64,000 bases of DNA from a virus: positions 62,001-126,000 of IMG/VR virus record IMGVR_UViG_3300032770_000002, one strand, 5' to 3'. Of the stretch, positions 9,474 to 50,034 are shown one piece after another. A model generated the notes under the pieces. That model did no database searches and had not been told where the DNA came from. It was given only the letters and a program-made list of their open reading frames with translations. The first letter of the stretch is position 1. Every line of letters begins with the position of its first letter. The position numbers and the translations under genes are program-made.

Positions 9474-10316
9474 GTGAACGCAAGATTGGTTATTGACGAG
9501 CACTGCGGCTTCTGTCCGGACGACCGTGTGGGTGACACTGTTTTGGAGAAGTGTCCAAAGTGCCACTCAAAGACGATCTTCAAAGGGCACAGCGGCAAGG
9601 CCTCAAAGTTTGAGTGCCCGAAATGCGGGCATAAGTTTCAAAAGGAACTAGCAAGTCACAAAGAAGCACACGAGTCATTGTTGACTGAGTTCGGAAATGT
9701 GCAGGCATGTCGACAATGCCGTATTACTTTTCCACACTACAGTAATAAGCATGGTCCGATTACACGATGTCCAGATTGTGGAAGCACTGATTTAGTTCAA
9801 TCTTCTGAGTTTTCGTCCTTACCGCCACATTCCAGAGAATATAACTGGAGCCAGACTCTTTATGGCCCATATCCAAAATCTGGTGAGCAGCTTCCAAAAC
9901 CTATTCAAAAACTATCTGATAATCCGTATAATTTAGCGCCAGACATCATTGCAGGACTACGTCGGAGTGCGGGGCTTAAGGAGACCCAGTTACTGGAGCG
10001 TAACTGGAGGTTTGGCCTGGACATCGACCTTGGGTCTCCTGAGTTTGAGGACGTTGACCCGGGTGAGGCTCGCCGGCTTGTCGTTGAGAGGCTTAGGCGC
10101 AAGATGAATGACGTGTCCAAGCTGGAAGCCTACGCGAAGAGCCAATACGAGGACATCATCGACGAGTTTGAGATGCTCAACGACGAGGCCGATGAGGATG
10201 AGTTCAACTACGTCATGCAGCGGCTCTATGACTGGGCCGACGACAATGAGATTTGGGTCGGAACTTTGACAAAAGGAACTGGTCCGAAAAGCGAGCAGGG
10301 CACGATTGAACTGTGA
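9474..10316 (+). CDS. Zinc-ribbon protein with N-terminal IDE tag
   Basis: 280 aa from GTG 9474. It begins with the tag 'MNARLVIDE' shared by many proteins here. Two zinc-ribbon units follow: CPKC (about residue 28) with CPKC (about 49), and CRQC (about 80) with CPDC (about 100). The C-terminal half is acidic and helical ('YEDIIDEFEMLNDEADEDEF'). The coding region about 9660-9940 is clearly richer in A+T than its flanks, as if a segment had been exchanged. The function is unknown; nucleic-acid binding is likely for the ribbons. The stop overlaps the next gene. Confidence 0.7.
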   Translation: MNARLVIDEHCGFCPDDRVGDTVLEKCPKCHSKTIFKGHSGKASKFECPKCGHKFQKELASHKEAHESLLTEFGNVQACRQCRITFPHYSNKHGPITRCPDCGSTDLVQSSEFSSLPPHSREYNWSQTLYGPYPKSGEQLPKPIQKLSDNPYNLAPDIIAGLRRSAGLKETQLLERNWRFGLDIDLGSPEFEDVDPGEARRLVVERLRRKMNDVSKLEAYAKSQYEDIIDEFEMLNDEADEDEFNYVMQRLYDWADDNEIWVGTLTKGTGPKSEQGTIEL

Positions 10317-10735
10317 GGGCCCGTGACGTCATTGATGAAGTTCACGACCACGCGCTTGGCGAGGTCCTCGTCCCATTCACGGCTGATGACCTGATAGAGA
10401 TCAGCCAGCTCGTTCACGACCTCATGGCCGACAGTGCTTACTACATCAGTGACCTGATGGCTAGTCAATATCGCCTGAAGTTCACCCTTGACGACGTGAA
10501 CTACCAGCGTGAACGGGTAAAATACTCGCTTGAAACAGGGCACGAGCTTCCGCCACTGTTTGGAGTCGTTGGGGCTTTCTCGTGGGCGCTTCTTAAGACC
10601 GACAAAGGGTGGACGTCAGCCGTCCTCGGACCAACTTCGGCTACTATTCCTCGGGATTCAACTTATCACCGTGACTTGCGCAGAGCTTTTCTCGATTTTG
10701 TCAATCACCAAGATTCCATAGACTTAAGCCAATGA
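10313..10735 (+). CDS. Hypothetical protein with N-terminal IDE tag
   Basis: 140 aa from GTG 10313. It starts with the tag 'MRARDVIDE'. The rest ('ADDLIEISQLVHDLMADSAYY', then a beta region 'FSWALLKTDKGWTSAVLG') is not recognised. Both ends overlap neighbours by 4 bp, so it is coupled to the zinc-ribbon gene upstream and the small gene downstream. Confidence 0.65.
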   Translation: MRARDVIDEVHDHALGEVLVPFTADDLIEISQLVHDLMADSAYYISDLMASQYRLKFTLDDVNYQRERVKYSLETGHELPPLFGVVGAFSWALLKTDKGWTSAVLGPTSATIPRDSTYHRDLRRAFLDFVNHQDSIDLSQ

Positions 10736-10920
10736 AGGCTCGTGAACTCATTGACCACCTGACGCACACGTCCGTTCGCACGTTGCGGCGTGACTTGTTC
10801 GCCAAGACACTGGGTGATTTGGCCATTGAAAAACGAAGCCAGAAGGACAGAGATCGTGAGCGAGTTTGGCGGGCCATCTCAACTGGACAGCGGCAACTAC
10901 GATATCGACGGCGCCACTAG
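10732..10920 (+). CDS. Small basic protein with N-terminal IDH tag
   Basis: 62 aa. It begins 'MKARELIDHL', a variant of the shared tag, and ends very basic ('STGQRQLRYRRRH'). The start overlaps the preceding stop by 4 bp. Its 3' end overlaps the convergent NlpC-like gene by 4 bp. Function unknown. Confidence 0.6.
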   Translation: MKARELIDHLTHTSVRTLRRDLFAKTLGDLAIEKRSQKDRDRERVWRAISTGQRQLRYRRRH

Positions 10921-11435
10921 ACAGGCGGCGGGCGGTGCAGTTTAAGCGCTCTCTTCAGCCAACCATCCTTGATCCATATCGTCTCCAAGACTCCGGTCTG
11001 CCACAACTGAGCCGGCGCGATCTCGTCAGCATCCACGCGGCTATTGAAGGGTTCGATGCCACCGCCACGAAGATAGAGTGTCACGATGCTTGAACAGATG
11101 CGGCTCGCCTTTCGATGTTTGGACCACGGGTTGAAGAAGCGCTCAAGGGCTGAAATTTCATAGGGCGTTCCGAGAAACGGCCTGATGGCTTCATGCCCGT
11201 TTTTGACGTTAAATGAGTGCGGACGCCTGATGCACACGAGGTGCTTGTCGACGCGAGCTGAGTAGATGTTGACCCCGTTAATCCGGGCGGCAACGACGTC
11301 GTCATCACGCCAAACTGACTCAACGTGAGCGAGCCACGTCCACGTCTTGATGGCGATGAGAAGTCCGACTAGTTCACTCGGGGAGTAGAAGAGAACGTCA
11401 CCCGGTAGGAGGTCAGGAATGTCCGCTATTTCCAT
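10917..11435 (-). CDS. Permuted NlpC/P60 (YiiX-like) papain-fold enzyme
   Basis: 172 aa. The order of motifs is that of circularly permuted NlpC/P60 enzymes: 'LLPGDVLFYSP' near the N-terminus, a His in 'WTWLAHVESV' (about residue 37), then the candidate nucleophile Cys in 'ASRICSSIVTLYL' (about 113), followed by 'PAQLWQ'. Such enzymes cleave amide or ester bonds in peptides, peptidoglycan or lipids. It is the last gene of a minus-strand operon that begins with a papain-like peptidase at 14047; its start overlaps the fusion gene stop by 23 bp. Host wall or lipid modification is a reasonable guess. Confidence 0.65.
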   Translation of the reverse strand: MEIADIPDLLPGDVLFYSPSELVGLLIAIKTWTWLAHVESVWRDDDVVAARINGVNIYSARVDKHLVCIRRPHSFNVKNGHEAIRPFLGTPYEISALERFFNPWSKHRKASRICSSIVTLYLRGGGIEPFNSRVDADEIAPAQLWQTGVLETIWIKDGWLKRALKLHRPPPV

Positions 11436-15132: not shown

Positions 15133-16253
15133 TGGGCCTCTTCCTTTTGGGCCGCCGACTTCTTCTTGGCCGTGGCGCTGGGAGTTTTTGGGATGAGCGA
15201 CATGACCACTTCGTATTGGTCCTTGTGGTGCCGCTTCACGTGGTCATCAAGCTGCGACCGAAAATTGTAGGTCGTCTTTTCACTCGAACAGATTGGGCAA
15301 CTAAATCGCCGCTTTCCACCGGGTTCTGTGGCAGGAGGTTGGGCCTCTTCCGCAGCGGGTGGTTCACTAGTAGGCTGGACTTCAGCCGTCGCTGGCTGAT
15401 TTAAAGTCGGCGAAGGAAGGTCCGTCGGCGGCTTAAACCCAGAAATTTCTTCAACCACAGCGGCTGAAGGAGCTACTTGTTCCACGACTGGAGCTTCGTC
15501 GACTGCGCCGACAACAGGCGATTCGGACGCTTCGGCCAAGGCTTGAGTTTCAGCTTCTTGCTGCATTCGTTGGGCTTCAAGTTCCTGTCGGCGTGGTGAG
15601 ATGACGGCCATCGGCACGCCCTTTGGGGTGCCTGGAGGCAACCTGACGCCCTGTGATTCTTGTTGTGGCTGCGGTTGTTTCGGCGGAACGGTGATGACTG
15701 TCGGGGTCAATGGCCGACCGTCCAAGTTTGGCCTGTGTGACACGTCGCGGTCTGATACCGTCGAGGCCAGCGTCTGACGTGACTCATAGAGTTCGGCTGG
15801 AGGCAGTCCAGTCGTCTCCTTGATGGGTGATTCAGGCGCCATCTGACCACGTCCACGAATGAACCCGGCCTTGACGGCGTCGTCAAAATTTTGAAACGCA
15901 ATGACGCCTGATTCAGCATGGGCGTTTGGGGACGGGTGTTGGGTCCCATGCATTGAAGTTCCAGCAAAGCCTACGTTTCCTTGCCCAACTTGGCGCGGTC
16001 GTGGACAGAGAACGAGTGGAACTGGCGTTGGTGAGACTTCCTTTTGAAGACCGCCTGGCCGAACGTAGCGTTCGAAAATCGGGTCATTGATCTTGACTTT
16101 CGACTTGGTCGTAATCGGCTGGCCCGGGTCGAGTTGAATAAACCCGCCGCCAAGGGCCGGAATTGGGCCGATGTTGATTGGGTGTTTGTGCGGGTTGATA
16201 TACCCGACCGTGAGCGTGGTCTTCTGTGTGGTCTTCTGTTCAGTAGAAGGCAT
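15129..16253 (-). CDS. Proline-rich protein with C-terminal C2H2 zinc finger
   Basis: 374 aa. Residues about 1-90 may form a small beta domain ('LTVGYINPHKHPINIGPIP', 'KINDPIFERYVRPGGLQ'). About 90-310 is low-complexity, rich in Pro, Gln, Glu and Val. Residues about 318-345 contain a C2H2 finger: CPIC, then a spacer with F and L, then 'HVKRHH'. The end is Lys/Ala-rich. C2H2 fingers are unusual in phage. Function unknown; it may be a virion protein with a flexible linker. A GTTCTAG element 31 nt upstream may drive it. Confidence 0.6.
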   Translation of the reverse strand: MPSTEQKTTQKTTLTVGYINPHKHPINIGPIPALGGGFIQLDPGQPITTKSKVKINDPIFERYVRPGGLQKEVSPTPVPLVLCPRPRQVGQGNVGFAGTSMHGTQHPSPNAHAESGVIAFQNFDDAVKAGFIRGRGQMAPESPIKETTGLPPAELYESRQTLASTVSDRDVSHRPNLDGRPLTPTVITVPPKQPQPQQESQGVRLPPGTPKGVPMAVISPRRQELEAQRMQQEAETQALAEASESPVVGAVDEAPVVEQVAPSAAVVEEISGFKPPTDLPSPTLNQPATAEVQPTSEPPAAEEAQPPATEPGGKRRFSCPICSSEKTTYNFRSQLDDHVKRHHKDQYEVVMSLIPKTPSATAKKKSAAQKEEAH

Positions 16254-16283
16254 ATGCGTTTTGGCGTATTGGTTGCCTGGTCT

Positions 16284-16290
16284 CTAGAAC
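16284..16290 (-). promoter_or_regulatory. GTTCTAG promoter candidate
   Basis: The minus strand reads GTTCTAG in the gap before the gene at 16253. A start 7 nt after GTTCT would give a leader of about 25 nt. Confidence 0.35.
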
Positions 16291-16324
16291 ATGACAACCT
16301 GCGCGGGTTCAGCGAGATGTGACT

Positions 16325-16900
16325 TTATTGAACTTCAACTTCTTTGGACGCGGCTTTGCCACACTTGACGATGTAGAGAATTGCGGCAAGTGAGTCAGCA
16401 ATGCCTTCGGCCAAAGCTGAGTTGATCCCCTTCTTTCGTTTCATCGTAGGCCAAGGGACATTCGGAAAGAATTTTGAGACGGCCTTGATGACTTCATCCT
16501 TTTCAGCATGCCGGTCTCCGCAGCACCACAGCTTTGAATCGTAAGGGCTGATGAGCTCAAGCTTGTCATGCTTGAAATAAGACTCGACGGTGGCGATCGT
16601 AAGGGCCGTCGCGAACCCCATTCCCTTGATGGCGAGAGCCGACCTGGCTCCAGACGTTGGCAGTTCCAACACGACGAGTGACGGTCGAAACCTGTCATGG
16701 GTCTCACGGAGCCACTTGCTGATCATTGAAATGCGGCGGTGGTCGTCCAAGATCACAGACACCCGGTCTTCACGGCGTTCCGTCTCAAGTGTTTCACCGT
16801 GCTTGAAGTCTAGTATGGGCTGGTCGGCCGATGTGTTGTCAAAGTCAACAATGGCGCACCCAGGGTGGGTGTATCCACAGTCAATTCCCATGATGATCAT
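16325..16900 (-). CDS. RuvC-like Holliday-junction resolvase (RNase H fold)
   Basis: 191 aa. The RuvC pattern is visible: first acidic residue in 'IMGIDCGYTHPGCAIVDFD' (Asp7), second in 'SLVVLELPTSGARSALAIKG' (Glu), a Lys-Asp-Glu-Val segment 'AEKDEVIKAVSKFF', and the last acidic residue in 'LAEGIADSLAAILYIV'. The product would cut branched DNA before packaging and pairs functionally with the UvsW-like helicase. Its start overlaps the upstream gene by 4 bp. It ends a four-gene minus-strand operon from 17728. Confidence 0.8.
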   Translation of the reverse strand: MIIMGIDCGYTHPGCAIVDFDNTSADQPILDFKHGETLETERREDRVSVILDDHRRISMISKWLRETHDRFRPSLVVLELPTSGARSALAIKGMGFATALTIATVESYFKHDKLELISPYDSKLWCCGDRHAEKDEVIKAVSKFFPNVPWPTMKRKKGINSALAEGIADSLAAILYIVKCGKAASKEVEVQ

Positions 16901-17103
16901 AGTGGCGTCAGTTCCTCAGGAGCAAATGTAATCGGGGCCGCGTTAAGCCACTCGTCAAGCCTGACTTTTATGACGACGTAGCCGAGTTCGCGGCAAACTT
17001 TAGTGACGGTGCCCACTCGGCGTAGGTGGCGTTCAGTGACGCTTCGATTAACTTTGACCTTGGAGTTGACCAAGAATCGTCGCTTGGCTTCTTCAAGGCT
17101 CAT
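16897..17103 (-). CDS. Small KOW-like basic protein
   Basis: 68 aa from ATG 17103, chosen because it overlaps the upstream stop as ATGA; an in-frame ATG four codons earlier also exists. The sequence 'RRVGTVTKVCRELGYVVIKV' resembles a KOW or SH3-like beta barrel. The function is unknown; RNA or DNA binding is possible. It is coupled to the RuvC-like gene. Confidence 0.55.
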   Translation of the reverse strand: MSLEEAKRRFLVNSKVKVNRSVTERHLRRVGTVTKVCRELGYVVIKVRLDEWLNAAPITFAPEELTPL

Positions 17104-17327
17104 TTTCGATTCCAAATCTCATTGGCAATCGACTTGATCGTCGAGGCGTAGTGAACGGCTTCAAGCCCTTCGATGGGCCGACCATTGACGATTGGACGTT
17201 TTGGCTTGGACTGGGCCTTAAGAGACTTTTCAAAGGCGTCGCGAGGATACATGCGCCCTGGCCATGATCGGGTTGTGGCTCGGGCTAGGACTCCTTTAAT
17301 AACGTGCTTTACCGCGTCGTCGCTCAT
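17100..17327 (-). CDS. Hypothetical protein
   Basis: 75 aa, basic, with 'VKHVIKGVLARATTRSWPGR' and a C-terminal helix 'AVHYASTIKSIANEIWNRK'. Not recognised. It overlaps both neighbours by 4 bp in the operon that ends with the RuvC-like resolvase. Confidence 0.55.
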   Translation of the reverse strand: MSDDAVKHVIKGVLARATTRSWPGRMYPRDAFEKSLKAQSKPKRPIVNGRPIEGLEAVHYASTIKSIANEIWNRK

Positions 17328-17728
17328 TTTGTCGTGGGCGTGTTCGTCATGCTCAAGAACTTGGCCAGTTGCGGTGACGCCTGCAACTGTCCTTTGGCGT
17401 CACGGGCAAAAAGCATCGTTTGACCGGCTGCTGAGCAAGCTTCTGGGCCGACGGCCAAGCGTTGGCTAAAGCTGCCTGATGGCAAGCCACCGAACGTGAT
17501 TTCAAACATGACGTCTGTTCTGGGCACCCCATTGGTGTTCGTTGGAATGAGCCCAATTTCCGTTCGCGCGTAGCCCAATTTTGCTTCGTAAAGTTGTGTC
17601 GCTGGATTCTGGGCGACTGAAAACCCGAGCACCGTCCCAGAAGCGACAAAAACGTGGTCCTTGACCGCCGCACACCCGGCTTGAAGAATCAACGCCAGGA
17701 GCGCCACATATTTTAATGATTTTGTCAT
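17324..17728 (-). CDS. Predicted lipoprotein
   Basis: 134 aa. 'MTKSLKYVALLALILQAGC' is a lipoprotein signal peptide with lipobox L-Q-A-G-C (Cys19), so the protein should be lipidated and membrane-anchored. The mature part is beta-rich ('VASGTVLGFSVAQNP', 'EAKLGYARTEIGLIPT') and unrecognised. It is first in the minus-strand operon. A role at the host envelope, such as surface exclusion, is only a guess. It is one of three lipoproteins in the window. Confidence 0.7.
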   Translation of the reverse strand: MTKSLKYVALLALILQAGCAAVKDHVFVASGTVLGFSVAQNPATQLYEAKLGYARTEIGLIPTNTNGVPRTDVMFEITFGGLPSGSFSQRLAVGPEACSAAGQTMLFARDAKGQLQASPQLAKFLSMTNTPTTK

Positions 17729-17765
17729 ATTGTCTTATCTACTTGCGATTTTGTGAAATTTTTTG

Positions 17766-17794
17766 TTTACAAATCACGGCCATTGTGGTATATT
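17766..17794 (+). promoter_or_regulatory. Sigma70-like promoter P1 (TTTACA-17-TATATT)
   Basis: TTTACA (17766-17771) is separated by 17 bp from TATATT (17789-17794). The preceding TTTTTG and the spacer text AAATCACG...TTGTGG recur in the other promoters of this class. The first base of the next gene is 11 nt after the -10 box, so the leader is about 4 nt. Confidence 0.75.
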
Positions 17795-17804
17795 CACACC
17801 AACG

Positions 17805-17948
17805 ATGAACACGACAACGCTCACTTTAACGCCGGCAATGCAGATCGCGCTGCATTTCAGCTGCCTAGCCCACGGCAACATTTTTCACCCACGTCGGCTC
17901 GTTTTTCACCTGTGCGGCATTCGCCGAGCAATCCTTGAGGTCATATGA
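17805..17948 (+). CDS. Small hydrophobic/basic protein
   Basis: 47 aa from ATG 17805, directly after promoter P1. It contains 'TLTPAMQIALHFSCLAHGN' and 'VFHLCGIRRAILEVI'. Its stop overlaps the next start (ATGA). No family recognised. Its position as first gene after an early-type promoter suggests a host-takeover peptide; this is inference. Confidence 0.5.
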   Translation: MNTTTLTLTPAMQIALHFSCLAHGNIFHPRRLVFHLCGIRRAILEVI

Positions 17949-18430
17949 GTCAAGTCGCCAAAATCATCGAAGGTTGGCACCTCCTCTTTCGTGGAAGCCA
18001 CGGAGTCCCGACCATCGGGATCAAGGTCAAACTTCTGAAATACGACCCTGTGGCCGATCGGGCCTATCGCGAGGTCTGGGAGATGAATGAATACACGTTC
18101 ACGGTCAATCCGCGAAGGACTAAGGAATTTCTCGGCCTGACTGACTCCGATTACAAAAAGCTTCGCGAGGAGATGGAGGCAAAAGAGCGCGAGGTTTGGC
18201 CGCCTAGTGTCGTGCTGAACCCCCGCGAACCACTCAAGGGATTATCCGCCGGGTTTTGTGTCTTTTGCGGCGGCTCCCTCGGGGCACCGTATCAGGAAGA
18301 CCTGTATCACGAGGAGTGCCTTAAGGAGGAAGAGTCGAAGAGGTCACTGACACCAGAGACCCTGAACCAGTGCGTCATACCAAGAAAGAGACCCCATCAT
18401 GAGTTCATACTTCGACGCATTCGACCGTGA
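17945..18430 (+). CDS. Hypothetical protein with C-terminal zinc motif
   Basis: 161 aa. It has a beta-rich N-terminal half ('GSHGVPTIGIKVKLLKYDP', 'WEMNEYTFTVNPRRTKEFLG') and a zinc-binding cluster 'GFCVFCGGSLG' followed by 'LYHEECLKEE' (C-x2-C, H-x2-C) around 103-128. It is second in the P1 transcript and overlaps the next gene by 32 bp. Function unknown. Confidence 0.6.
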   Translation: MSQVAKIIEGWHLLFRGSHGVPTIGIKVKLLKYDPVADRAYREVWEMNEYTFTVNPRRTKEFLGLTDSDYKKLREEMEAKEREVWPPSVVLNPREPLKGLSAGFCVFCGGSLGAPYQEDLYHEECLKEEESKRSLTPETLNQCVIPRKRPHHEFILRRIRP

Positions 18431-18917
18431 GGTCGCCGAACTGGCCAGAGCCTGCAAGTCAGACGAGGACTTTCTTAAAAACCTCGAGCTTCTGGAACAG
18501 CGGATGGTCAACGACTGCGAACTGTTCGCTGGCGACATTGAGACGCCAGAGGACGTTCGTCAGTGCATCATGGCCGTCATCTCACTTCAAGGCATTCGTT
18601 CCGACAAGAGTGGAAGCGCCAAAGCCAAGGAGATGGCCGTGTGCTGCAAGACGTCACCGCTCAGCCGAGACATGCACAGCCTGTGGCACGACATTGCCAG
18701 GATGCGTTATGAGTTTCGCTACGCGATGGTCTTCGATGACCCAGCCACGGCGGTCAAGCACCGTGACGAGTATGAGTGGGATGACAAGCCACTCAATCGA
18801 ACAGTCCGGCCATTTGAGATTCGAGACGCACCTGCTTATTGCAAGAAGGTGCTTGAAAAACTGGCCCATGGCCAAGACCCTGACTGGGAGGACATGAACA
18901 AGCAATATTATCCATGA
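18399..18917 (+). CDS. Hypothetical protein
   Basis: 172 aa, largely helical and acidic ('AFDREVAELARACKSDEDFL', 'ETPEDVRQCIMAVISLQGIR'). Not recognised. The last codons (MNKQYYP) lie in a 20-bp unit that is duplicated across the stop codon. It belongs to the P1 transcript. Confidence 0.6.
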   Translation: MSSYFDAFDREVAELARACKSDEDFLKNLELLEQRMVNDCELFAGDIETPEDVRQCIMAVISLQGIRSDKSGSAKAKEMAVCCKTSPLSRDMHSLWHDIARMRYEFRYAMVFDDPATAVKHRDEYEWDDKPLNRTVRPFEIRDAPAYCKKVLEKLAHGQDPDWEDMNKQYYP

Positions 18918-26237: not shown

Positions 26238-26456
26238 ATGGACGCCCGAGCGACGATTGACCACCTCATTGAGCAGGACCACTTGCGCTCCCTGCAGAAG
26301 AGCCTCTTTGCCCGGGCCATGCGTCTCTTTGATGACGGTTACACCCCCGACGAGATCTTCCAAGTCGTCAAGAAAACTGACGGACAGTTACCGGCTCACT
26401 TTGTCGACACGGTCAAGTCCGCGTGGCAGGAATATCGAAGGCGCGGGTTCGCATGA
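26238..26456 (+). CDS. Small protein with N-terminal IDH tag
   Basis: 72 aa. It begins 'MDARATIDHLIEQDHLRSLQ', a variant of the shared tag, followed by helices 'LFARAMRLFDDGYTPDEIFQ'. The C-terminal helix is basic. It is preceded by TTGGCGTAGTTATGACAA, nearly identical to the text before the gene at 62486. It is coupled by ATGA to the amidoligase gene. Confidence 0.6.
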   Translation: MDARATIDHLIEQDHLRSLQKSLFARAMRLFDDGYTPDEIFQVVKKTDGQLPAHFVDTVKSAWQEYRRRGFA

Positions 26457-27535
26457 GGGCCAGAGACTCCATTGACGTCCTCTTCGAGTCGATTGAGGGT
26501 CTTGGCTCACGCAAGGTTGGGATTGAGCTTGAGATTCTCGTCCTCAGCAAATTCAAGCGTCAGTTTCAACAGCTTGCCAGAAGCTTGGACATTGGCGTTG
26601 GCTCAGACTTTTCAATGGAAAAGCGGCACGAAGGGTTTGAGCAATTTTATGGGACGGTCGAAATTGACATCGGCCGACGCCCATGGACTGAGATCGAGGG
26701 CCGACTGACTCAACTGACAAGTTGGCTGCGCCACGAGGTGCCAATAAAATTCAAGTCGCAAGCAAGGCCGCGAGTTCCAGCGCGAGAGCATGAAATTCAC
26801 CTTCCAATTGGTCGCGTCTCGCAGACCATGACCGGCGCGTTGCACATTCACTTTGACATCGATGATTGGTTTCGTGACCACGACCACTTTCGCTCGTTTT
26901 TGGCCGTGTTCAACGAGTTCCTCGACCGCGGCGACCTCGAGTCGATGGTGGCCAAGTCGCGCTACGCCGTTGCGCCAAAGAAGTCCAAGTTCGACACCTC
27001 GAGCCCATATGGACAGGGACACGAGTATGCCAAGCCTTGGCCAGCTCCAGTTCCAAGGCCAACTGACGTAAAGCGATTTCAGAACCTTCCATCCGACGAG
27101 CTGACGACGATGTCTGCCGGGTCCAAGACCGTTCGGCGCAAGTTGACGTTTGACACGTCTCGCGTGCGTGACTTTGTCCGGTGGTGGGCCAAGGAGATGG
27201 ATGTGGACCGGCTTCAGGCGGTAAATCTGCTGTCGTCATGGGACCACGGCACGCTGGAGTTTCGATTCCCAAACGCGACGCTCAGCATCAGCGCAATTTC
27301 AGGGTGGGTGGAATTTCTGGCTGGTCTCATCAACTTTAGCCGCGACAAGAATTACGGCCAGTTTTTGTGGGCCTCACGGCGAGGTGAACACAAGACAATC
27401 GGTCAGTTCATGGACAAGCGCAAGGCGGCCCATGGGCACCCACAGTTTCCGCCGCCGTGGGACAGGTATGACTACGAGGTGCCAAGGTCTTATCGGAAAT
27501 TGGGCCTCGAGTCATTGCAGCCGCTGTCAATGTAA
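26453..27535 (+). CDS. Amidoligase_2-type enzyme with N-terminal tag
   Basis: 360 aa from ATG 26453 (overlaps the preceding stop). The first residues 'MRARDSIDVLFESI' are a form of the shared tag. The amidoligase signature follows: 'KVGIELEILVL' (E-x-E, about 24), 'TGALHIHFDIDDWF' (H-x-H, about 135), and 'LQAVNLLSSWDHGTLEFRFPN' in shortened form, here around 256-275, with 'ATLSISAISGWVEFLAGL'. Family enzymes form amide bonds from a carboxylate and an amine using ATP. The tag suggests that it may travel in the virion. Closest relative in the window is the protein at 38080. Confidence 0.75.
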   Translation: MRARDSIDVLFESIEGLGSRKVGIELEILVLSKFKRQFQQLARSLDIGVGSDFSMEKRHEGFEQFYGTVEIDIGRRPWTEIEGRLTQLTSWLRHEVPIKFKSQARPRVPAREHEIHLPIGRVSQTMTGALHIHFDIDDWFRDHDHFRSFLAVFNEFLDRGDLESMVAKSRYAVAPKKSKFDTSSPYGQGHEYAKPWPAPVPRPTDVKRFQNLPSDELTTMSAGSKTVRRKLTFDTSRVRDFVRWWAKEMDVDRLQAVNLLSSWDHGTLEFRFPNATLSISAISGWVEFLAGLINFSRDKNYGQFLWASRRGEHKTIGQFMDKRKAAHGHPQFPPPWDRYDYEVPRSYRKLGLESLQPLSM

Positions 27536-37346: not shown

Positions 37347-37832
37347 GTGAAATCGCGTTCGCTTATCGACGCACTGGTGTTCAACAACCCGTCCGACCTT
37401 GTGTCGATGACGGAGTCGTTTGACCTTCATCCAAAAAATGACTCGTCAAGATTCAGTGTTTCGAGTTGGGTGTGGAAGGCCCTGCTGTGGGTGATCGAGA
37501 GTTCGGCCGCGCTCGCTGGGCTCGCCATTGACTTTGACTACTGGGACTCCAATGACAACCGCGGACTAGGAACCCAGGCCGAGTGCGATGAACTGGCCGA
37601 CGCCATTGAAAAGTTTATTCGCGGCCGGTCAGATGACTTCGTCTTTCACCGCCCATTCAGTGAGGGTGAAAAGCAAAGCATCGTCTTGATGCTCATCAAC
37701 AGCACCGGGTCAACGCAAGCTGACGCTGAGGACTTTGTTCGGCGTGAGACAAAACACTACGTCGTTGACGTCGCGACGATTCGCGAGTTCATCGCATTCC
37801 TACGCCAGTGCGGCGGCTTCGAAATCGGCTGA
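37347..37832 (+). CDS. Hypothetical protein with N-terminal tag
   Basis: 161 aa from GTG 37347. It begins 'MKSRSLIDALVFNNPSDLVS', a form of the shared tag. A segment 'WKALLWVIESSAALAGLAID' is hydrophobic but short for a membrane helix. The rest is acidic and helical ('AECDELADAIEKFIRGRSDD'). Its stop overlaps the next start. Confidence 0.6.
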   Translation: MKSRSLIDALVFNNPSDLVSMTESFDLHPKNDSSRFSVSSWVWKALLWVIESSAALAGLAIDFDYWDSNDNRGLGTQAECDELADAIEKFIRGRSDDFVFHRPFSEGEKQSIVLMLINSTGSTQADAEDFVRRETKHYVVDVATIREFIAFLRQCGGFEIG

Positions 37833-38083: not shown

Positions 38084-39141
38084 TCCTTCACGAGGTCAAC
38101 CTCAACCAAGGCCGAATTGGCGTCGAGATGGAAATGCTCATTCGCCTCGACCTGTCACGCGACGCGGACACGCACGTGACTGACCCTCGTTTCAGGGCCA
38201 AGATGCGCCAGGTCTTCACTGACTGTGGCTTCACCCTCGGTGATGACCCAACGGTCATTCAGCACAGCCTCTCAACGGACATCTTTTACGCCAGCTTTGA
38301 GACGGCCAACCAGGAGCTTGAGGGCGCGGCGTGGAGCGACCTTGAGCCAAGGCTGACGGCGCTCCTTTCATGGCTGAAGCGCAACGACCGAGTTTGGGTT
38401 GACCGGATGTCTCACGCTGTCACCACCATACCGCAGTCTGGAGCGTCCTGGGCTGACACGGTGCTGCCGAGGGCCAAGATGCCGAACAACACGACGTGTG
38501 GGCTGCACATTCACTTCCACGCTGAAGACTGGTTCGGTGACTTTGACCACGCCATCCGCTTTGTCCAGCTGTGGAACCGCTCACGCGACTTCTTCAAGAA
38601 ACTGGCCCACCCGGCTCGGTATAAGACTGGCCAAGGCTACGTGGCCACCGGCGACGAGCACGCCGACATCAGCAAGCCGATGAGCGTCCCAACACCAGAC
38701 ACGGTGCGCAGGCTGAAGGCCGAGTGGGAAATGACGCCGACTGGCTATCAGGTTCGTAAAATCCTCAAGTGGATGTCACTGCACCGGTGGACGGCGCTCA
38801 ACACGACGCGGGTTGAATTTCGCAAGGACATTGAGTTTCGGCTGGCCCATGGGACGATGAACATTGGCACCATCACGCACTGGGTGAGCATGTTCGCGTC
38901 GCTCATTGAAGCCGCGAAGGAGACACGCATGCCGTCAACCTTTACGCGATACATGTGGAGTGAGGAGCGCCCGCTGATGGTTGACTACCTCAAGCGCAGT
39001 GGAAAGCTGGCCAAGGCCGACACGTCACACGCCGCGCCCTATGACCTTCCAAAGCGAATGGGCCGTCCCATTCGCCGACTGCTCTACCCGCAAAACGCCA
39101 AATTTATCCCAGTCAAAAGTGAAGGCGCGGCAACTCATTGA
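38080..39141 (+). CDS. Amidoligase_2-type enzyme
   Basis: 353 aa. Signature segments: 'GRIGVEMEMLIRLDLS' (E-x-E near residue 15), 'TTCGLHIHFHAEDWFGDF' (H-x-H around 144), and 'IEFRLAHGTMNIGTITHWVS' around 249-268. It shares this order with the tagged enzyme at 26453, but its start 'MILHEVNLNQ' lacks the tag. It should ligate an amine to a carboxylate. Overlaps the next gene by 23 bp. Confidence 0.75.
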   Translation: MILHEVNLNQGRIGVEMEMLIRLDLSRDADTHVTDPRFRAKMRQVFTDCGFTLGDDPTVIQHSLSTDIFYASFETANQELEGAAWSDLEPRLTALLSWLKRNDRVWVDRMSHAVTTIPQSGASWADTVLPRAKMPNNTTCGLHIHFHAEDWFGDFDHAIRFVQLWNRSRDFFKKLAHPARYKTGQGYVATGDEHADISKPMSVPTPDTVRRLKAEWEMTPTGYQVRKILKWMSLHRWTALNTTRVEFRKDIEFRLAHGTMNIGTITHWVSMFASLIEAAKETRMPSTFTRYMWSEERPLMVDYLKRSGKLAKADTSHAAPYDLPKRMGRPIRRLLYPQNAKFIPVKSEGAATH

Positions 39142-39760
39142 CGACGTGAATGACCAGGAGCTGCTCGTCCGGGCTCACCGGCTCGTGCTCGCCCGTGGGA
39201 TGGGCGAACAGATTCCGGCGAACGACCCAGTCCTTGCCCAGCTAACTCAAGCCGTCATTCAGTGGATGGATGAAATACAGGTCCCGGCCAGTGAGCGAAT
39301 GCGCTATCTCTACTTCGCGATTTTAAACAACACATCCGAGCACATTCGAGCGCGATTGAGCCGCAACCCACTCGAAGTCGTCTTTTACGAACTGCTACGA
39401 ACAAACCTATCGTTGCTGTGGACGGCTTATGCTAAACAAGCCGACTTTCACGAGCAGCGCAGGCTGTGGCGCAGCGCGATGCACAAGATCGCCTCAGTCA
39501 AGCGGAGTGGGTGGCAGGTGTGGCATTGTTCGCCGCGGTATCGCGACGACTCACGTATGAGCGCCAGTAGTGATGACTGCGTGGCCGTCATCCACCCGGC
39601 TTTCTTCCCATTCATTCAAACATGTCAAGGCGCTGAGCAGGTCACTGATGAGCGAGCAAGCAACATCATGGAGCCTGACGCTGGCGAATTAGAAGGACCG
39701 GATGAACCGCCATTTAACGAGACAGGTGACGTGGCTGGTGGTTATCTTGATGACGAATGA
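39119..39760 (+). CDS. Hypothetical protein with N-terminal IDD tag
   Basis: 213 aa from GTG 39119, giving the tag 'MKARQLIDDVNDQELLVRAH'. Helical core ('FYELLRTNLSLLWTAYAKQA') with an acidic C-terminus ('AGELEGPDEPPFNETGDVAG'). The start overlaps the amidoligase end. Function unknown; could be packaged with its neighbours. Confidence 0.6.
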   Translation: MKARQLIDDVNDQELLVRAHRLVLARGMGEQIPANDPVLAQLTQAVIQWMDEIQVPASERMRYLYFAILNNTSEHIRARLSRNPLEVVFYELLRTNLSLLWTAYAKQADFHEQRRLWRSAMHKIASVKRSGWQVWHCSPRYRDDSRMSASSDDCVAVIHPAFFPFIQTCQGAEQVTDERASNIMEPDAGELEGPDEPPFNETGDVAGGYLDDE

Positions 39761-40521
39761 CAGCACGAGCTAAAATTGACGAGATGGCCGAATACATGAT
39801 GGGCCAGCATAGTGAGCGCCAGAAGGCCAGGCGAAAGGTCTCCGTTGGCAAGGTTCGGCTTACCTTGGGCAAGGGGAGGTTCGGAAAGCCAGAACAGGCC
39901 ACGAAGTGGGAGCTTCGTTTCACCATTTATGGGAAGAATTACTCGATCAAGTCCTATGAAGCCTCCGGCCACTTGCCAGCATCGATAGTTCGACGCTACG
40001 GCCTTGAGGTTGGCACCGCCATAGACCCAGCGCCGGCTTACGGCCCGGCGATTGACTACCCCACGCTTAATTTTGGCGGTTGGAACAAGAATTCAACTGT
40101 CAACTCCGTCATGGACGAGATCGCCGCTGATCCAGGCAAGGGCGACGTCCTTCGGTTCTTTATTGAGCGCATCGTCCCGCTCATCAAGCAGACCGTTGAC
40201 ACGTTCAGCGTTGAGGATGACCTGCCAAAGGTCTTCATGGGAAAGGGCTCAAGGGCCGACTTGCGGTTCACCGCCCGCGGCCGCGGCTTTCGCCTCGCCT
40301 TGAACAAGTATCGCTTTACGCGTGCGGGTCCTGGCGCTCAGCTTGAGCGGTTTGTCCAAGTCGCCCGCAAGCCTGAAGACGTCCTCGCCAAGGTGGAGAT
40401 TGCCGACCAAGGGTTTCCGAGCACCTTCTGGGTCCTGCTCAACCCTGAGGAGCTTGACAGCTTTAAGGTTGACATTCAACGAAACGCGCGTGAACACGTT
40501 GGAGGCATCCTCGGCCGATGA
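39757..40521 (+). CDS. Tagged 'NPEE' family protein, paralogue 1
   Basis: 254 aa. It starts 'MTARAKIDEMAEYMMGQ'. The C-terminus 'FWVLLNPEELDSFKVDIQRN' defines a family of four in this window (with 40518, 46972, 48577), all ending in a strand, N-P-E-E and a basic helix. The central region is alpha/beta. No known domain recognised. The paralogues carry tag plus 'MA-x-Y', which argues for common descent. Function unknown; virion cargo is proposed. Confidence 0.65.
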   Translation: MTARAKIDEMAEYMMGQHSERQKARRKVSVGKVRLTLGKGRFGKPEQATKWELRFTIYGKNYSIKSYEASGHLPASIVRRYGLEVGTAIDPAPAYGPAIDYPTLNFGGWNKNSTVNSVMDEIAADPGKGDVLRFFIERIVPLIKQTVDTFSVEDDLPKVFMGKGSRADLRFTARGRGFRLALNKYRFTRAGPGAQLERFVQVARKPEDVLAKVEIADQGFPSTFWVLLNPEELDSFKVDIQRNAREHVGGILGR

Positions 40522-41330
40522 ATGCACGAAACTTCATAGATTTTGTTTACAAATCACGGATTTGTGGTATGATCCGTGAGATGGCCGAGTATCGCATGCC
40601 TGACGAGCCAAAACACGTGATCACCGTGTCGACCGGCGTAAAGATTGGCGATGAGTATCTCTCACTTCGCCACTCGCGTGGCTGGTCTAATTTGTCGTGG
40701 CGCACTACAGGTCCTGCAAACGCGCAAAACATCTCCGTTTTCGCTAATTCTAGCGTGCAACTGTCTGATCGGCGTGAGCGGTCGTTTCAGGTTATTCGCC
40801 CGCCTTCGACTGAGTTTGCCACGGCTCTTCGCGAGCTCTTGCAAAAATTTTTCACAGCCCGAGGCCGTGGGATCTCACGTTTTTCATTTCCGTGGTCAAG
40901 GCACCTTAAGGCATTGAACACCAAGTTTCCAAATGCCCTCGATGACGTGAAGGCCGAGGCCTACGAAAAGGCCGAGGCGTGGGTGGCGGAAAATGAGTTT
41001 CCAAGCCATGAGCTAGAGCCAGTTGAAAAGATCGAGCTTCCAGAGCCAGTTGATGACAACCCTGAGAGGTTTTGGCCTTATCTCGCGCCGCTCATTCAAG
41101 ACATTCGCTTCATCACCCACACTAATGAAAAGAAAATTGCGGCCTTTCTCAAGTTAAAAGGGCCTGACGATGACGTTGTCCGAGTTGACATAGGCTTTCA
41201 CGAGGTTTACTTCTTGGTCAACCCCGAGGAGCGTGAGATGCTCAGGCGCGCCATCACCTTGGCGCTTCGCAAGTTCATCGAAGAGGTCGGACTTGGCCAG
41301 CGTGAAGAGGAGAACGATGAGGTCCGATGA
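40518..41330 (+). CDS. Tagged 'NPEE' family protein, paralogue 2, with internal promoter
   Basis: 270 aa from ATG 40518 ('MNARNFIDFVYKS'). Residues 9-21 are encoded by a sigma70-like promoter (40546-40573), and Met22 (ATG 40581, 'MAEYRMPDEPKHV') falls at its expected +1. So a tagged 270-aa form and an untagged 249-aa form may both be made. The C-terminus 'VYFLVNPEEREMLRRAITLA' is the family hallmark. Function unknown. Confidence 0.6.
   Translation: MNARNFIDFVYKSRICGMIREMAEYRMPDEPKHVITVSTGVKIGDEYLSLRHSRGWSNLSWRTTGPANAQNISVFANSSVQLSDRRERSFQVIRPPSTEFATALRELLQKFFTARGRGISRFSFPWSRHLKALNTKFPNALDDVKAEAYEKAEAWVAENEFPSHELEPVEKIELPEPVDDNPERFWPYLAPLIQDIRFITHTNEKKIAAFLKLKGPDDDVVRVDIGFHEVYFLVNPEEREMLRRAITLALRKFIEEVGLGQREEENDEVR
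40546..40573 (+). promoter_or_regulatory. Sigma70-like promoter P5 (TTTACA-16-TATGAT) within a coding region
   Basis: TTTACA (40546-40551), 16-bp spacer AATCACGGATTTGTGG, TATGAT (40568-40573). The preceding TTTTG and the spacer match promoter P1 closely. ATG 40581 lies 8 nt after the -10 box and is in frame with the tagged gene. Confidence 0.65.
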
Positions 41331-41695
41331 TGCGAGCCAAGCACCTCATCGACGAGATCAATCGTGACAAGGTAGTCATGCTTCAACGGTTGGGGGCCGG
41401 GCTTAGTGTTTGTGATGAGCCGCCGTGGTTTGGCCAGATAACTTCCATCAAGTCTGGTGTCTTAGGCATCGAGCTTGACGACTGCGCCAACTTGCTTGAC
41501 CACTGGTGGCTGCACCACGCCACATTTAGCCCAAGCACAATCGGTGAGTCTGGCGTCTACGTGTCCAAGAGCTGGCATCATGGGAGCGTGGAAGAGGACA
41601 TTCGCCAGAATTTCAAAAACGGAATGCCAATCTCATTCTGGCTTGTCAAGTTCAACGCCTCGCGTGACAAGGTCAACTTCTTTCTCAACCAATGA
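41327..41695 (+). CDS. Hypothetical protein with N-terminal IDE tag
   Basis: 122 aa (ATG 41327 or the adjacent ATG 41330). The opening 'MRAKHLIDEINRDKVV' is a tag variant with A and K exchanged. The rest, 'EPPWFGQITSIKSGVLGIEL' and 'CANLLDHWWLHHATFSPSTI', is not recognised. Coupled to both neighbours. Confidence 0.6.
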   Translation: MMRAKHLIDEINRDKVVMLQRLGAGLSVCDEPPWFGQITSIKSGVLGIELDDCANLLDHWWLHHATFSPSTIGESGVYVSKSWHHGSVEEDIRQNFKNGMPISFWLVKFNASRDKVNFFLNQ

Positions 41696-44945: not shown

Positions 44946-45437
44946 ATGAAAGCACGCGACGTCATTGAGCAGTCAATTCGGTGGTCCAAGCCTAATCCGG
45001 TCATCACGGTTGTTCCGATGGAACCAGAGGAGGTGGAACTTGTCGCGTCACTGGCCAATCGACGAGTCAAGCGAGTCGATAGCCTCTTCTTTTGGGATGA
45101 GGCCATCGGGTCTCATTTGATTGTTGGCGACCAACAATTTAAAATCATCCACTCACAGGATTATCTGCGAAGAAAGTTCAAAAATGTCTTGAACACTGGG
45201 CACGGTGGAGAGAATTTAGGATTTGGCCGGCAAACGTTTCTTACCTCTCAGCCGCCTGGTCCAGGTCAATTCCAAGAGCTTAACCCTGGGATTTACATCA
45301 TGGTGTTCAAGACTGAACAGGGTTGGGTTGTGCTTCGAAAAGTTTCAGGGTTGGATGACGTGCAGTCTTACGGCCATCCTATTCCGGACTTGAAGCAAGC
45401 AATCGACGTGTTTCTCAGCCTGTTGAAGAACCCGTAA
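44946..45437 (+). CDS. Hypothetical protein with N-terminal IEQ tag
   Basis: 163 aa from ATG 44946 ('MKARDVIEQSIRWSKPNPVI'). The remaining sequence has 'EEVELVASLANRRVKRVDSL' and a C-terminal 'GIYIMVFKTEQGWVVLRKVS'. Not recognised. Confidence 0.6.
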   Translation: MKARDVIEQSIRWSKPNPVITVVPMEPEEVELVASLANRRVKRVDSLFFWDEAIGSHLIVGDQQFKIIHSQDYLRRKFKNVLNTGHGGENLGFGRQTFLTSQPPGPGQFQELNPGIYIMVFKTEQGWVVLRKVSGLDDVQSYGHPIPDLKQAIDVFLSLLKNP

Positions 45438-46610: not shown

Positions 46611-46975
46611 AAGCTGTAGCGCGCGTCATCGACAAGTTCAAGCGTTGGATTAAGTCGCACAAGCTTGGTGAACCTTATGTCGTGACCACGAGCTACGTCC
46701 ACGACATGCCACTTCTCCCGGGCGTTTATCATCGATACATGATTTCTGGCGGCGATTTTCCACTGGACATGCGGACTGACTTCTGTCAGGTCGATGATAA
46801 GGTTGACTCGCTCATTCACTCACTGGCCACGCTTAACGGCGGAAGTTACCTCAAGAGCGGTATGATTAACCACGACCGCCTCATCGTCTTTACGTTCGAT
46901 GACCTCGCCGACGTGGACAACTTCAAGCTTCAACTGGACCGACGGGCACCGAAGGTCGTGGTTAGGGTGAAATGA
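46607..46975 (+). CDS. Tagged 'NGG' family protein
   Basis: 122 aa from GTG 46607. The opening 'MKAVARVIDKFKRWIK' is a tag with two extra residues. The C-terminal half 'SLIHSLATLNGGSYLKSGMI', 'LIVFTFDDLADVDNFKLQLD' is the family hallmark shared with 44716, 49389 and 49687. Function unknown. Confidence 0.6.
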   Translation: MKAVARVIDKFKRWIKSHKLGEPYVVTTSYVHDMPLLPGVYHRYMISGGDFPLDMRTDFCQVDDKVDSLIHSLATLNGGSYLKSGMINHDRLIVFTFDDLADVDNFKLQLDRRAPKVVVRVK

Positions 46976-47805
46976 ACGCGCGCACGGTTATTGACGAGAT
47001 GGCGCAATATTATGTCGGCCCGATGCGACCTTACGACGAGACTCACGTTGAGGATGTCGAGCTGAAGTTTTATGACCGCAGGCGCTTTGACCAGAAGTGG
47101 TATTTCACAGCTACTGTTTATCACAAAGGGAAGATTTACAGGTATCGAATTAATGGCAGTCTGTCAGAGCGGCTGATCAATAAAGTGAAGACAGTGTCAT
47201 CGCGGACGTGGAAAGGCTTTGAAGATAAGATTCAATTAAACCCACTCCTTTGGAAGCTTTACACCGAGAATATCAAGCCGCAGTTTACAGCGGCGCTTAA
47301 TGACGTGAATGCGCACTTGTCGCTTCACCCAGAACGCCGGTTCGACGGCTTCAAGTTTATAGGGATGCCACATAACAGGGACAAGCCAATTGAGTCGTAT
47401 CAATTTCTTGGGCCATCCGTCAGGTTGACACCAAGGAAGCCAGACGAGGTGTTGACCTACCCATGGCTAACTCGCAAGGAGCTAATCGATTTCCTTGACG
47501 TTGAAGGTTTTCGCTATATAGACACCATTAGCCAATACGGTATCGAAATGTCAACTCGACGTGGCCGCGAGATTGGAGCAAAAGATCCACAACATCGTTT
47601 GGCTACCTTCCTTAACAAGCTTGAAAGACCGGGTGATTCACTTTTAACAATCAAATCCTCGCAAAGTGTGGGAGAGCTTTGTTGGGTCCTGATGAATCCT
47701 GAGGAGCGTAAGCGGTTTGGCCTTGAAATTAAGAGAATGGCCCGTAACAGAGTTAAAGATCTGTTGAGTCATGAAGATAATCCAGATTTAGACTTAGAAT
47801 ATTGA
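46972..47805 (+). CDS. Tagged 'NPEE' family protein, paralogue 3
   Basis: 277 aa. 'MNARTVIDEMAQYYVGPMRP', then 'YDETHVEDVELKFYDRRRFD', is very similar to the protein at 48577. The C-terminus 'LCWVLMNPEERKRFGLEIKR' shows the family end. The last 300 bases are richer in A+T. Function unknown; the pair flanks an HNH endonuclease gene and probably arose by duplication. Confidence 0.65.
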   Translation: MNARTVIDEMAQYYVGPMRPYDETHVEDVELKFYDRRRFDQKWYFTATVYHKGKIYRYRINGSLSERLINKVKTVSSRTWKGFEDKIQLNPLLWKLYTENIKPQFTAALNDVNAHLSLHPERRFDGFKFIGMPHNRDKPIESYQFLGPSVRLTPRKPDEVLTYPWLTRKELIDFLDVEGFRYIDTISQYGIEMSTRRGREIGAKDPQHRLATFLNKLERPGDSLLTIKSSQSVGELCWVLMNPEERKRFGLEIKRMARNRVKDLLSHEDNPDLDLEY

Positions 47806-47807
47806 AC

Positions 47808-47812: not shown

Positions 47813-47819
47813 GCAAGGC

Positions 47820-48053: not shown

Positions 48054-48067
48054 CGTGACGACCGCAC

Positions 48068-48072: not shown

Positions 48073-48079
48073 GTCATTT

Positions 48080-48577
48080 ATGTCATATAAGCAAAAACAA
48101 GCGTGTAGACGACGAATGGTTCGGTTGTGGAAAGATCAAAATTGGCGTAAGAAGATCGCCAAATCTACGAAACGTCAATGGTCCAACCCTGATTTTGCAT
48201 CACGCGTAAGAAACCCGATGGTGTTTTTCAACTATCTTCGCAGTAATTACAGATGCGGAGCGGCCAGACGAAATCTTCCGTTTGAATTAACCCCTGAACA
48301 AATAGCCGAGATAGTGATTCGTCCGTGTTTCTATTGCGGTTCCATGCCGGAAAAGTCAAAGTGGGCCGTCTTTATTGAACGTGGTCGAGCAGTCTACAGG
48401 CGATTTAGCGTTGTTCCGGATCATCACGGGATTGATCGTGTTGAAAATTCAAAGGGTTACACTCTCGACAATGTTGTAAGTTGTTGCAGTATTTGTAACG
48501 TCGCTAAAAGAACGATGTCGAAAGATGCATTCTTAGAGTGGGCAAAAAGATTGGCCCATCATCAAGGTTGGATTTAA
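48080..48577 (+). CDS. HNH homing endonuclease
   Basis: 165 aa. The HNH core is 'PCFYCGSMPEK' (zinc Cys pair), 'VVPDHHGIDRVENSKGYTLD' (catalytic H-H and D), then 'NVVSCCSICNVAKRTMSKDA' (N and second Cys pair). The basic N-terminus 'KQKQACRRRMVRLWKDQNWR' is typical of phage HNH genes. The region is A+T-rich relative to flanks. It sits between two paralogues, which share homology across the insertion. Confidence 0.85.
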   Translation: MSYKQKQACRRRMVRLWKDQNWRKKIAKSTKRQWSNPDFASRVRNPMVFFNYLRSNYRCGAARRNLPFELTPEQIAEIVIRPCFYCGSMPEKSKWAVFIERGRAVYRRFSVVPDHHGIDRVENSKGYTLDNVVSCCSICNVAKRTMSKDAFLEWAKRLAHHQGWI

Positions 48578-49392
48578 TGGACTCACGCCAAACTATTGAT
48601 AGGATTTTTGAGATGGCGCGATACTACATCGGCCCGATCAAGCCGTATGACGAGATTCACCTTGAAAACGCTGAGCTGAAGTATTACGACCGCAAGCGTG
48701 GGCCACAGAAGTGGTATTTTCGGGTCAATGTCCTCTATCAAGGGCGGGTCTTTGAATATAGGAATTGGGGAGACCTTGCGAAGCGCCACACGAGTAGCAT
48801 TGATTGGGAGAAGCGGCGTGAGCTGAAGCAGACCAACCAGCCGAAGGCCATCTTCTCAATGTCTTCAATGACGTTGAAGAAGTGGGAGGAAAAGGCCGCC
48901 AAGAACCCAGACGTCTGGAAGCTCTACACCGAGACCATCAAGCCGCACCTCGACAAGTCACTTGAGGACTTTGAGAAGATGTCTGGCAAGCCAACGATTC
49001 AGCCCGACCAATTTCTTTCAGGAACTGCTAACCGGCAAGACGACGACACGTGGGCCGATCCAGAGCGTTGGAGAAGAGCGGCGAATCCGCGCGATTTTTC
49101 ATGGCTGTCGAACGATCAGTTTCGACAGGTTCTCGATGATGAGGGCATTCGCTACATGCAGGACATCGCCGAATATGGTGTGGAACGCTACGCCAAGTAT
49201 TGGCAAATGGACGATTGGAAGCGTGTGGCGGTGTTTATCGACAAGCTGATGAAGCCAGACGACAAGTTGTTCGACATCAGAACGGCTCAGCGTCACCACG
49301 ACTACGTCCTGATGAACCCAGAGGAGCAGGAGCGGTTTGAAGCGCGCATTCAACGGCTGGCCCGCCAGAATGTCAGCGGCATGCTCTCATGA
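48577..49392 (+). CDS. Tagged 'NPEE' family protein, paralogue 4
   Basis: 271 aa from ATG 48577 (TAATG junction). 'MDSRQTIDRIFEMARYYIGP', then 'IKPYDEIHLENAELKYYDRK', parallels the protein at 46972. The end 'DYVLMNPEEQERFEARIQRL' is the family hallmark. The two share also 'WKLYTE(N/T)IKP'. Function unknown. Confidence 0.65.
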   Translation: MDSRQTIDRIFEMARYYIGPIKPYDEIHLENAELKYYDRKRGPQKWYFRVNVLYQGRVFEYRNWGDLAKRHTSSIDWEKRRELKQTNQPKAIFSMSSMTLKKWEEKAAKNPDVWKLYTETIKPHLDKSLEDFEKMSGKPTIQPDQFLSGTANRQDDDTWADPERWRRAANPRDFSWLSNDQFRQVLDDEGIRYMQDIAEYGVERYAKYWQMDDWKRVAVFIDKLMKPDDKLFDIRTAQRHHDYVLMNPEEQERFEARIQRLARQNVSGMLS

Positions 49393-49700
49393 AAGCGCGT
49401 GACATCGTTGATGATGGCTTCAAGAAGCTTCGGCGTTTTTACATGGAGGTGGGTTTTCCAGCCGACTCAGACGACCTAATCGGACCTACTGTTCACGCCA
49501 TTGCGGCGTTAAATGGTGGCCAGCACATGGCTTCTGGCTTCAGTAACAAACGAAGACACATTGTCTTCGTGTTTGACAGCGAACCTGACGCCAATTCGTT
49601 TCAAGAGCAAGTTCACAAGCGGTGTCCATCCGTCGATTTCTATGGGCGCGGCGGCATGCTTCCGACGCGTTTTTCATTGCCATTTCATGACTCCCCGTGA
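49389..49700 (+). CDS. Tagged 'NGG' family protein
   Basis: 103 aa. 'MKARDIVDDGFKKLRRFYME' followed by 'AIAALNGGQHMASGFSNKRR' and 'HIVFVFDSEPDANSFQEQVH', the family hallmark. Four-base overlap upstream and 14-base overlap downstream. Function unknown. Confidence 0.6.
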   Translation: MKARDIVDDGFKKLRRFYMEVGFPADSDDLIGPTVHAIAALNGGQHMASGFSNKRRHIVFVFDSEPDANSFQEQVHKRCPSVDFYGRGGMLPTRFSLPFHDSP

Positions 49701-50034
49701 CGTCATTGAGTTGCTGAACTTGGACTCGCGGTTCGTGGTTGTCTACACGCCAGGGTCGGAGAGGTCGGGTGGGTCAGATAGCATTGCGACAGTTCTGATT
49801 GGACTTTCAGCCATGAACGACGGCTATTTTTGGGCCGGCTCATTCTCTAGCTTAAACAAAGAACGGGCGTTCCTGTTTGAATTTAAAGACCCTAACGACG
49901 CCTTGAACTTCAAGAAGCAGGTCTTGTCACGCTGTCCAGACGCTGACGTGGTAACCCGGCCGTTCTGCGGCTTGGCTCCGACCACGTTCAGGGAGAAGCA
50001 GGTTCAGTCGATCGTCGTGCGAAAATCAGGGTGA
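49687..50034 (+). CDS. Tagged 'NGG' family protein
   Basis: 115 aa from ATG 49687 ('MTPRDVIELLNLDSRFVVVY'). The family part is 'VLIGLSAMNDGYFWAGSFSS', then 'FLFEFKDPNDALNFKKQVLS' and 'RCPDADV'. Function unknown. Confidence 0.6.
   Translation: MTPRDVIELLNLDSRFVVVYTPGSERSGGSDSIATVLIGLSAMNDGYFWAGSFSSLNKERAFLFEFKDPNDALNFKKQVLSRCPDADVVTRPFCGLAPTTFREKQVQSIVVRKSG

Follow-up and report, generated by a model that had tools for sequence, protein, structure and literature searches.

Numerous otherwise mostly unrelated proteins encoded in a 64,000-nucleotide stretch of viral DNA (the window, bases 62001-126000 of the metagenome-derived, 230,253-base IMG/VR virus record IMGVR_UViG_3300032770_000002) carry the same short terminal peptide, with the core A-R-x-x-I-D. 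This tag is very probably a removable capsid targeting sequence that works in a T4-like manner, with letters of its own and an unusually large cargo set. A preliminary description of the window had proposed a packaging signal analogous to that of T4. This proposal is strongly supported by a prohead protease gene beside the capsid gene, by tags ending in LxE in related phages, by a predicted cut site whose placement depends on the tagged end, and by junctions that are kept in paralogues and fused proteins; the tag is, however, not confined to the N-terminus. The whole record was read in overlapping pieces with approximate gene calls. Positions given below are those of the window unless the contig is named.

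Extent of the tag in the window and the whole record

The preliminary description had listed 18 starts, on "eighteen different proteins", with the consensus M-x-A-R-x-x-I-D-E. Every one of them opens a reading frame that matches or approaches M-x-A-R-x-x-I-D, but the final glutamate occurs in only six of the 18 (9474, 10313, 39757, 41330, 46218 and 46972). Near-variants have S for A (37347 and 48577), K for R (41330), E for D (44946, 45454 and 49687) or V for I (49389), and the variant at 46607 contains a two-residue insertion (MKAVARVID). GTG serves as the start codon in six of the 18. The bodies behind the tag are mostly unrelated; since two of the tagged sets in the window are paralogous (39757/46972/48577 and 46607/49389/49687), about 14 unrelated bodies remain. 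The tagged genes and one untagged paralogue are given here, with a slash marking the junction between tag and body; the NPEE-type module is described with the cargo below.

9474-10316, plus strand, N-terminal tag VNARLVIDE, zinc-ribbon protein, 280 aa
10313-10735, plus strand, N-terminal tag VRARDVIDE, 140 aa, body without a family
10732-10920, plus strand, N-terminal tag MKARELIDH, 62 aa
26238-26456, plus strand, N-terminal tag MDARATIDHLIE, 72 aa, predicted cut site LIE
26453-27535, plus strand, N-terminal tag MRARDSIDVLFE/S, amidoligase-like (PF12224, E = 1e-7), predicted cut site LFE
37347-37832, plus strand, N-terminal tag VKSRSLIDA, 161 aa
38080-39141, plus strand, amidoligase-like paralogue of 26453-27535 without a tag, a natural untagged comparison
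39119-39760, plus strand, N-terminal tag VKARQLIDD, 213 aa
39757-40521, plus strand, N-terminal tag MTARAKIDE/MAEY, NPEE-type C-terminal module at residues 214-254
40518-41330, plus strand, N-terminal tag MNARNFIDF, NPEE-type module near the C-terminus at residues 228-252
41330-41695, plus strand, N-terminal tag MRAKHLIDE, another in-frame ATG at 41327
44946-45437, plus strand, N-terminal tag MKARDVIEQ, 163 aa
45454-46221, plus strand, N-terminal tag MKAHHIIEM, 255 aa
46218-46610, plus strand, N-terminal tag VKARRVIDE, 130 aa
46607-46975, plus strand, N-terminal tag variant VKAVARVIDK, 122 aa, body paralogous to 49389
46972-47805, plus strand, N-terminal tag MNARTVIDE/MAQYYVGP, NPEE-type module at residues 226-267, paralogue of 48577
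48577-49392, plus strand, N-terminal tag MDSRQTIDRIFE/MARYYIGP, tag three residues longer with the same IxE/MA junction, C-terminal NPEE-type module
49389-49700, plus strand, N-terminal tag MKARDIVDD, 103 aa
49687-50034, plus strand, N-terminal tag MTPRDVIEL, 115 aa, body paralogous to 49389

A motif search of the whole genome placed the tag throughout the 230-kb record, well beyond the region first described. N-terminal tags are carried by 33 called proteins and by four starts that the gene caller missed or shortened (9474, 10732 and 37347 in the window; contig 176918), about 37 altogether. Four further copies are C-terminal, and two multi-domain proteins contain internal copies. In 14 proteins AR..ID falls among the first 18 residues, where only 0.16 would be expected. 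When all four-residue patterns were searched without bias over these residues, the best pattern in shuffled proteomes reached 3-5 proteins and never exceeded five, compared with 14 for AR..ID. Anywhere in the proteins of the window phage, [AS]R..ID occurs 23 times versus 1.8 ± 1.4 in shuffled proteomes. The tag signal is real, strong and far above chance.

Prohead protease, related phages and the predicted cut site

The gp21-type prohead protease that such a signal calls for was sought and found as contig gene 18 (contig 15553-17388; PF03420, Peptidase_S77, E = 3.9e-16), and the gene that follows it encodes a gp23-type capsid protein (contig 17422-18873; PF07068, Gp23, E = 1.1e-23). As judged by inspection of the sequence and alignment, contig gene 18 has a long C-terminal extension resembling a coiled-coil scaffold domain; its C-terminal tail conforms to xE[SA]xx[LMI]VxRLS at most of the 25 loci examined. 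In six of six aligned phages, G[RQ]LDE directly precedes the conserved domain of the capsid protein; across the 25 loci, LDE is missing only from the most distant, L034, which has MDE. This LDE is a predicted cut site that fits the [IL]-x-E specificity of gp21.

Eight further large records contain the same capsid gene, with capsid proteins mostly 66-70% identical; one of them, G005, is a near-duplicate of G004. No DNA similarity between the window phage and sequenced phages was found. In G012, G008, G007 and G004, an unbiased search recovered the N-terminal tag A..IV..LLE (also given as MxAxx[IL]VxxLLE), and in G001 the N-terminal tag I...LLE, which often precedes an acidic DDFDLKDL stretch. 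These tags align with that of the window, with A at position 0, hydrophobic residues at 3, 4, 7 and 8, and often E at 9. The versions are lineage-specific, and those of the relatives end in LxE, the motif cut by gp21; the profile of the window phage gives at most two weak matches in each relative. As a control, the same pattern search recovered the known internal-protein leader in T4, whereas nothing comparable emerged from the portions of SPO1 and phiKZ that were searched. The window-phage profile found no tag in the T4 stretch containing the internal-protein genes or in the SPO1 and phiKZ stretches. The closest cultured lead is Bacillus phage SP-15, which grows on B. subtilis W23 and whose capsid protein is distantly related. 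Its candidate capsid targeting tag is IxF[LV]RE, located at or close to the start of five proteins:

L103:34806-35339
L103:45365-45982
L103:42624-44051
L100:15673-16365
L103:46812-47120

A Pfam scan of four of these SP-15 bodies gave no match, and no function is claimed for them.

Cut-site placement was analyzed in G004, G012, G008 and G007, the near-duplicate record being excluded, using N- and C-terminal copies selected by a profile of nine core residues that ignores the flanks. Glutamate occupies position +9 in 47 of 52 N-terminal tags, mostly as LLE, versus 2 of 14 C-terminal tags (p = 1e-7), whereas E-S/A occurs in the five residues ahead of the tag in 8 of 14 C-terminal versus 1 of 52 N-terminal copies (p = 4e-6). 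If the tag is removed at [IL]-x-E, the site should follow the tag at the N-terminus and precede it at the C-terminus, and the observed flanks agree; whichever end is tagged, the predicted cut site falls between the tag and the body. Each of the four C-terminal copies in the window phage is preceded by E-S (LSE/S, LTE/S, IGE/S and QHE/S), a C-terminal tag sequence being exemplified by LLSESSARRLIDSQLEM. Following the N-terminal tag, [ILVMF]xE is found in 18 of 33 proteins, against 16% of untagged proteins (p = 4e-6), and in 22 of 33 when VIE and IIE are counted. This site is either IDE itself or lies a few residues downstream, and roughly one tag in three has none nearby. Cutting strictly after I-D-E, as anticipated in the preliminary description, was rejected as a universal rule because E is present in only six of the 18 listed tags; tags without an adjacent site may remain uncut or have sites further in.

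The junction is maintained despite changes in length. The paralogues at 46972 and 48577 keep I-x-E directly before MA[QR]YY[VI]GP despite the three-residue insertion inside the tag, and contig gene 232, which reads VFE/MALDPG here, has LTE/MALDLG, LTE/MAMDL and LTE/APIDFG in relatives. In multi-domain genes 214, 224, 226 and 228, LGE/S, LPE/S or LGE/A stands at domain joints; gene 214 (contig 138790-140415) has two such joints, both LGE/S, one of them followed by SARSVVDEMAQ. A 1145-aa protein of G001 (L042:7573-11010) contains six internal [DE]DFExKDL copies, at residues 14, 148, 376, 473, 644 and 953, each with a glutamate shortly ahead of it (LVE, LSE, LPE, ALE, GQE and CLE; strict LxE in three of six). 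These multi-domain genes and the G001 protein are probable cargo polyproteins. With somewhat better than even confidence, we suggest a position-independent, removable import code in which the site always lies between tag and body, some polyprotein effectors are cut only inside the prohead, and each lineage has its own version.

Outside the window, on the minus strand at contig 136625-138028, an 80-aa frame resembles part of the major capsid protein (DFPRWIFPVIQNMSECDVIDQLISVQPMS). The 344-aa frame beside it starts like the tail sheath; the two are partial second copies of structural genes.

Proposed mechanism, known systems and alternatives

From the extent of the tag, the protease and capsid homologies, the lineage-specific LxE-ending versions and the end-dependent placement of the predicted site, all read from sequence, we infer packaging, cleavage and a binding partner. 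Otherwise unrelated proteins bearing this short and probably helical peptide (core A-R-x-x-I-D in the window phage and A-x-x-[IL]-V-x-x-L-L in relatives) would be captured by the scaffold core or the inner shell while the prohead assembles. The gp21-type protease, fused to its scaffold-like coiled-coil domain, would then cut at [ILV]-x-E between tag and body, freeing the cargo inside the capsid. The tag would be used at the N-terminus, at the C-terminus with xE-S/A ahead of it, or between domains of a cargo that is then cut into pieces. Cargo would presumably be injected into the host together with the DNA, a step for which T4 is the sole model.

T4 offers the same design in IPI, IPII and IPIII (leader MKTYQEFIAE) and in the Alt propeptide, short common leaders on unrelated bodies that are cut by gp21. 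The likeness extends to the gp21-type protease, the gp23-type shell, the predicted cut after [IL]-x-E and a cargo set that varies among related phages. In T4, a 10-residue leader suffices for packaging, with residues 4 and 7 targeting and residues 8 and 10 governing cutting; D at the cut position blocks cutting and not targeting, Alt and gp21 are cut near the C-terminus too, and the internal proteins co-purify with the scaffold (PMC9026906). The systems differ in that about 40 tagged proteins occur here versus three internal proteins and Alt in T4, at least 10 internal proteins being reported for T-even phages overall (PMC12373910). Moreover, the tag of the window phage is found at the N-terminus, at the C-terminus and between domains, and many copies have no clear cut site. 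Ejection-protein propeptides of phiKZ and SPN3US are likewise large-phage head cargo processed by a prohead protease, but are cut at S/A-x-E and often exceed 100 residues (PMC5694885), in contrast to a tag of about 9-14 residues. This A/S-x-E motif does not describe the present system, in which the predicted sites are [ILV]-x-E at the tag and LDE in the capsid protein. An N-terminal signal of P1 DarB is sufficient to send a reporter into the phage head (PMC9024508). That signal comprises about 30 residues and is described for one protein, and gp21-type LxE logic is not described for it. Encapsulation peptides of bacterial microcompartments and encapsulins are short, often helical, located at either terminus, and load cargo into a protein shell. 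They are an analogy only, since they are not removed by a protease and the shells are unrelated.

Several observations weigh against capsid targeting. Apart from the cut-site logic, the tag and the T4 leader MKTYQEFIAE are not similar in sequence. An obvious [ILV]xE is also missing next to about one in three window-phage tags, although in T4 targeting survives D at the cut position. The fragments G002 and G003 contain few or no tags. Under the tag profile, the scaffold tail ranks in roughly the top 2-25% of C-termini, only a weak resemblance to the C-terminal tag. Structure models are of low confidence (pLDDT 62 for 46972-47805 and 49 for gene 232) and suggest a helix at the tag, and gene starts were derived with a simple home-made caller. 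Separately, the idea that the tag is a copy of the scaffold tail is suggestive only and is not claimed here, the tail-profile score not being decisive.

The tag might instead dock to another phage assembly or compartment, such as a replication, transcription or membrane site, the LxE endings being coincidental. Some tagged enzymes of the relatives (a NUDIX/kinase fusion, HAD, 2H phosphoesterase and a lysozyme domain) could indeed work unpackaged in the cell. We nevertheless consider this unlikely: [ILV]xE lies between tag and body at either end, following the same logic as the capsid LDE, internal copies sit at domain junctions, and T4 packages with the same design.

Far less probable still is that the tagged proteins form one very divergent family, with the tag as its N-terminal helix and a body homology that has become invisible. 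Small paralogue groups and the 12 proteins with a common C-terminal NPEE-type module would fit such a family, but the bodies are as different as a zinc ribbon, an amidoligase and very short proteins, the amidoligase paralogue at 38080 is untagged, HAD-type enzymes related to one another carry the tag in G004 and G001 but lack it in G012 and G008, and C-terminal placement contradicts a one-family N-terminus.

The peptide, and not the DNA, is the conserved element. As the preliminary description had noted, the codons at the tag differ, synonymous codons varying at A, R, I and D, and no 6-mer is common to the regions upstream of tagged genes; the peptide is therefore what is conserved, and a regulatory or DNA-level explanation was rejected on the same two grounds. 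Tagged genes mostly overlap or abut the preceding gene at their start. It is accordingly most improbable that the tag arose incidentally when 5' gene ends were recently duplicated, or that it is a promoter, translation enhancer or other DNA or RNA element over the start codon: true paralogues do occur several times among the tagged genes, some of which lie next to each other and overlap, yet the same peptide is also found at C-termini and between domains, and the peptides of relatives differ yet follow the same rule.

Putative cargo and possible significance

Under capsid targeting, the tagged bodies would be the cargo, and most of them have no recognizable family. Zinc ribbon and amidoligase are recognizable in the window phage, and the tagged bodies of relatives include 2H phosphoesterase, NUDIX, HAD, PDZ, lysozyme and ParE-like domains. 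Matches between these phages are sparse, involving only 52 of 152 tagged proteins, a pattern that recalls the variable internal proteins of T-even phages; contig gene 232 is the one that is broadly conserved. Close relatives were also sought through their cargo, and scans using 46972-47805, 26453-27535 and contig gene 232 found nothing, and most cargo bodies therefore appear private. Matches of a loose profile in conserved enzymes of the relatives (the primase-like G012_239, and G008_94, which has orthologues in every relative) probably arose by chance and were not counted as cargo.

T4 internal proteins turned out to be anti-restriction proteins. The proteins that large phages carry into cells are mostly unknown, and they are hard to measure for uncultured viruses. 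If the tag does direct proteins to the capsid, about 40 proteins of this phage would be candidate injected factors for host takeover or counter-defence, with one to three dozen further candidates in each of several relatives, and the injected repertoire of many uncultured large phages could become readable from sequence. The pattern search is applicable to any phage with a gp21/gp23-type head, and tags that work at either end, together with polyprotein cargo, would also help to load phage heads with foreign proteins.

Two kinds of domain turn up repeatedly in tagged proteins or polyproteins of different phages, 2H phosphoesterase (2'-5' RNA ligase family) and NUDIX (L040:16634-19006 and L059:14163-15473; L041:12236-16765 and L074:17741-18853), and are candidate injected counter-defence or RNA-repair enzymes.

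A second shared element is a C-terminal module of about 40 residues, FWVLLNPEE..xF..I.R.AR..V..LL, present in 12 proteins, most of which are tagged as well:

Window 40396-40518
Window 41199-41273
Window 47647-47772
Window 49270-49389
Contig genes 13, 214, 216, 222, 224, 225, 235 and 300

Among the untagged genes of the window, 52878-53849 has a weak radical SAM-type match (phrog_21308, E = 3.6e-8).

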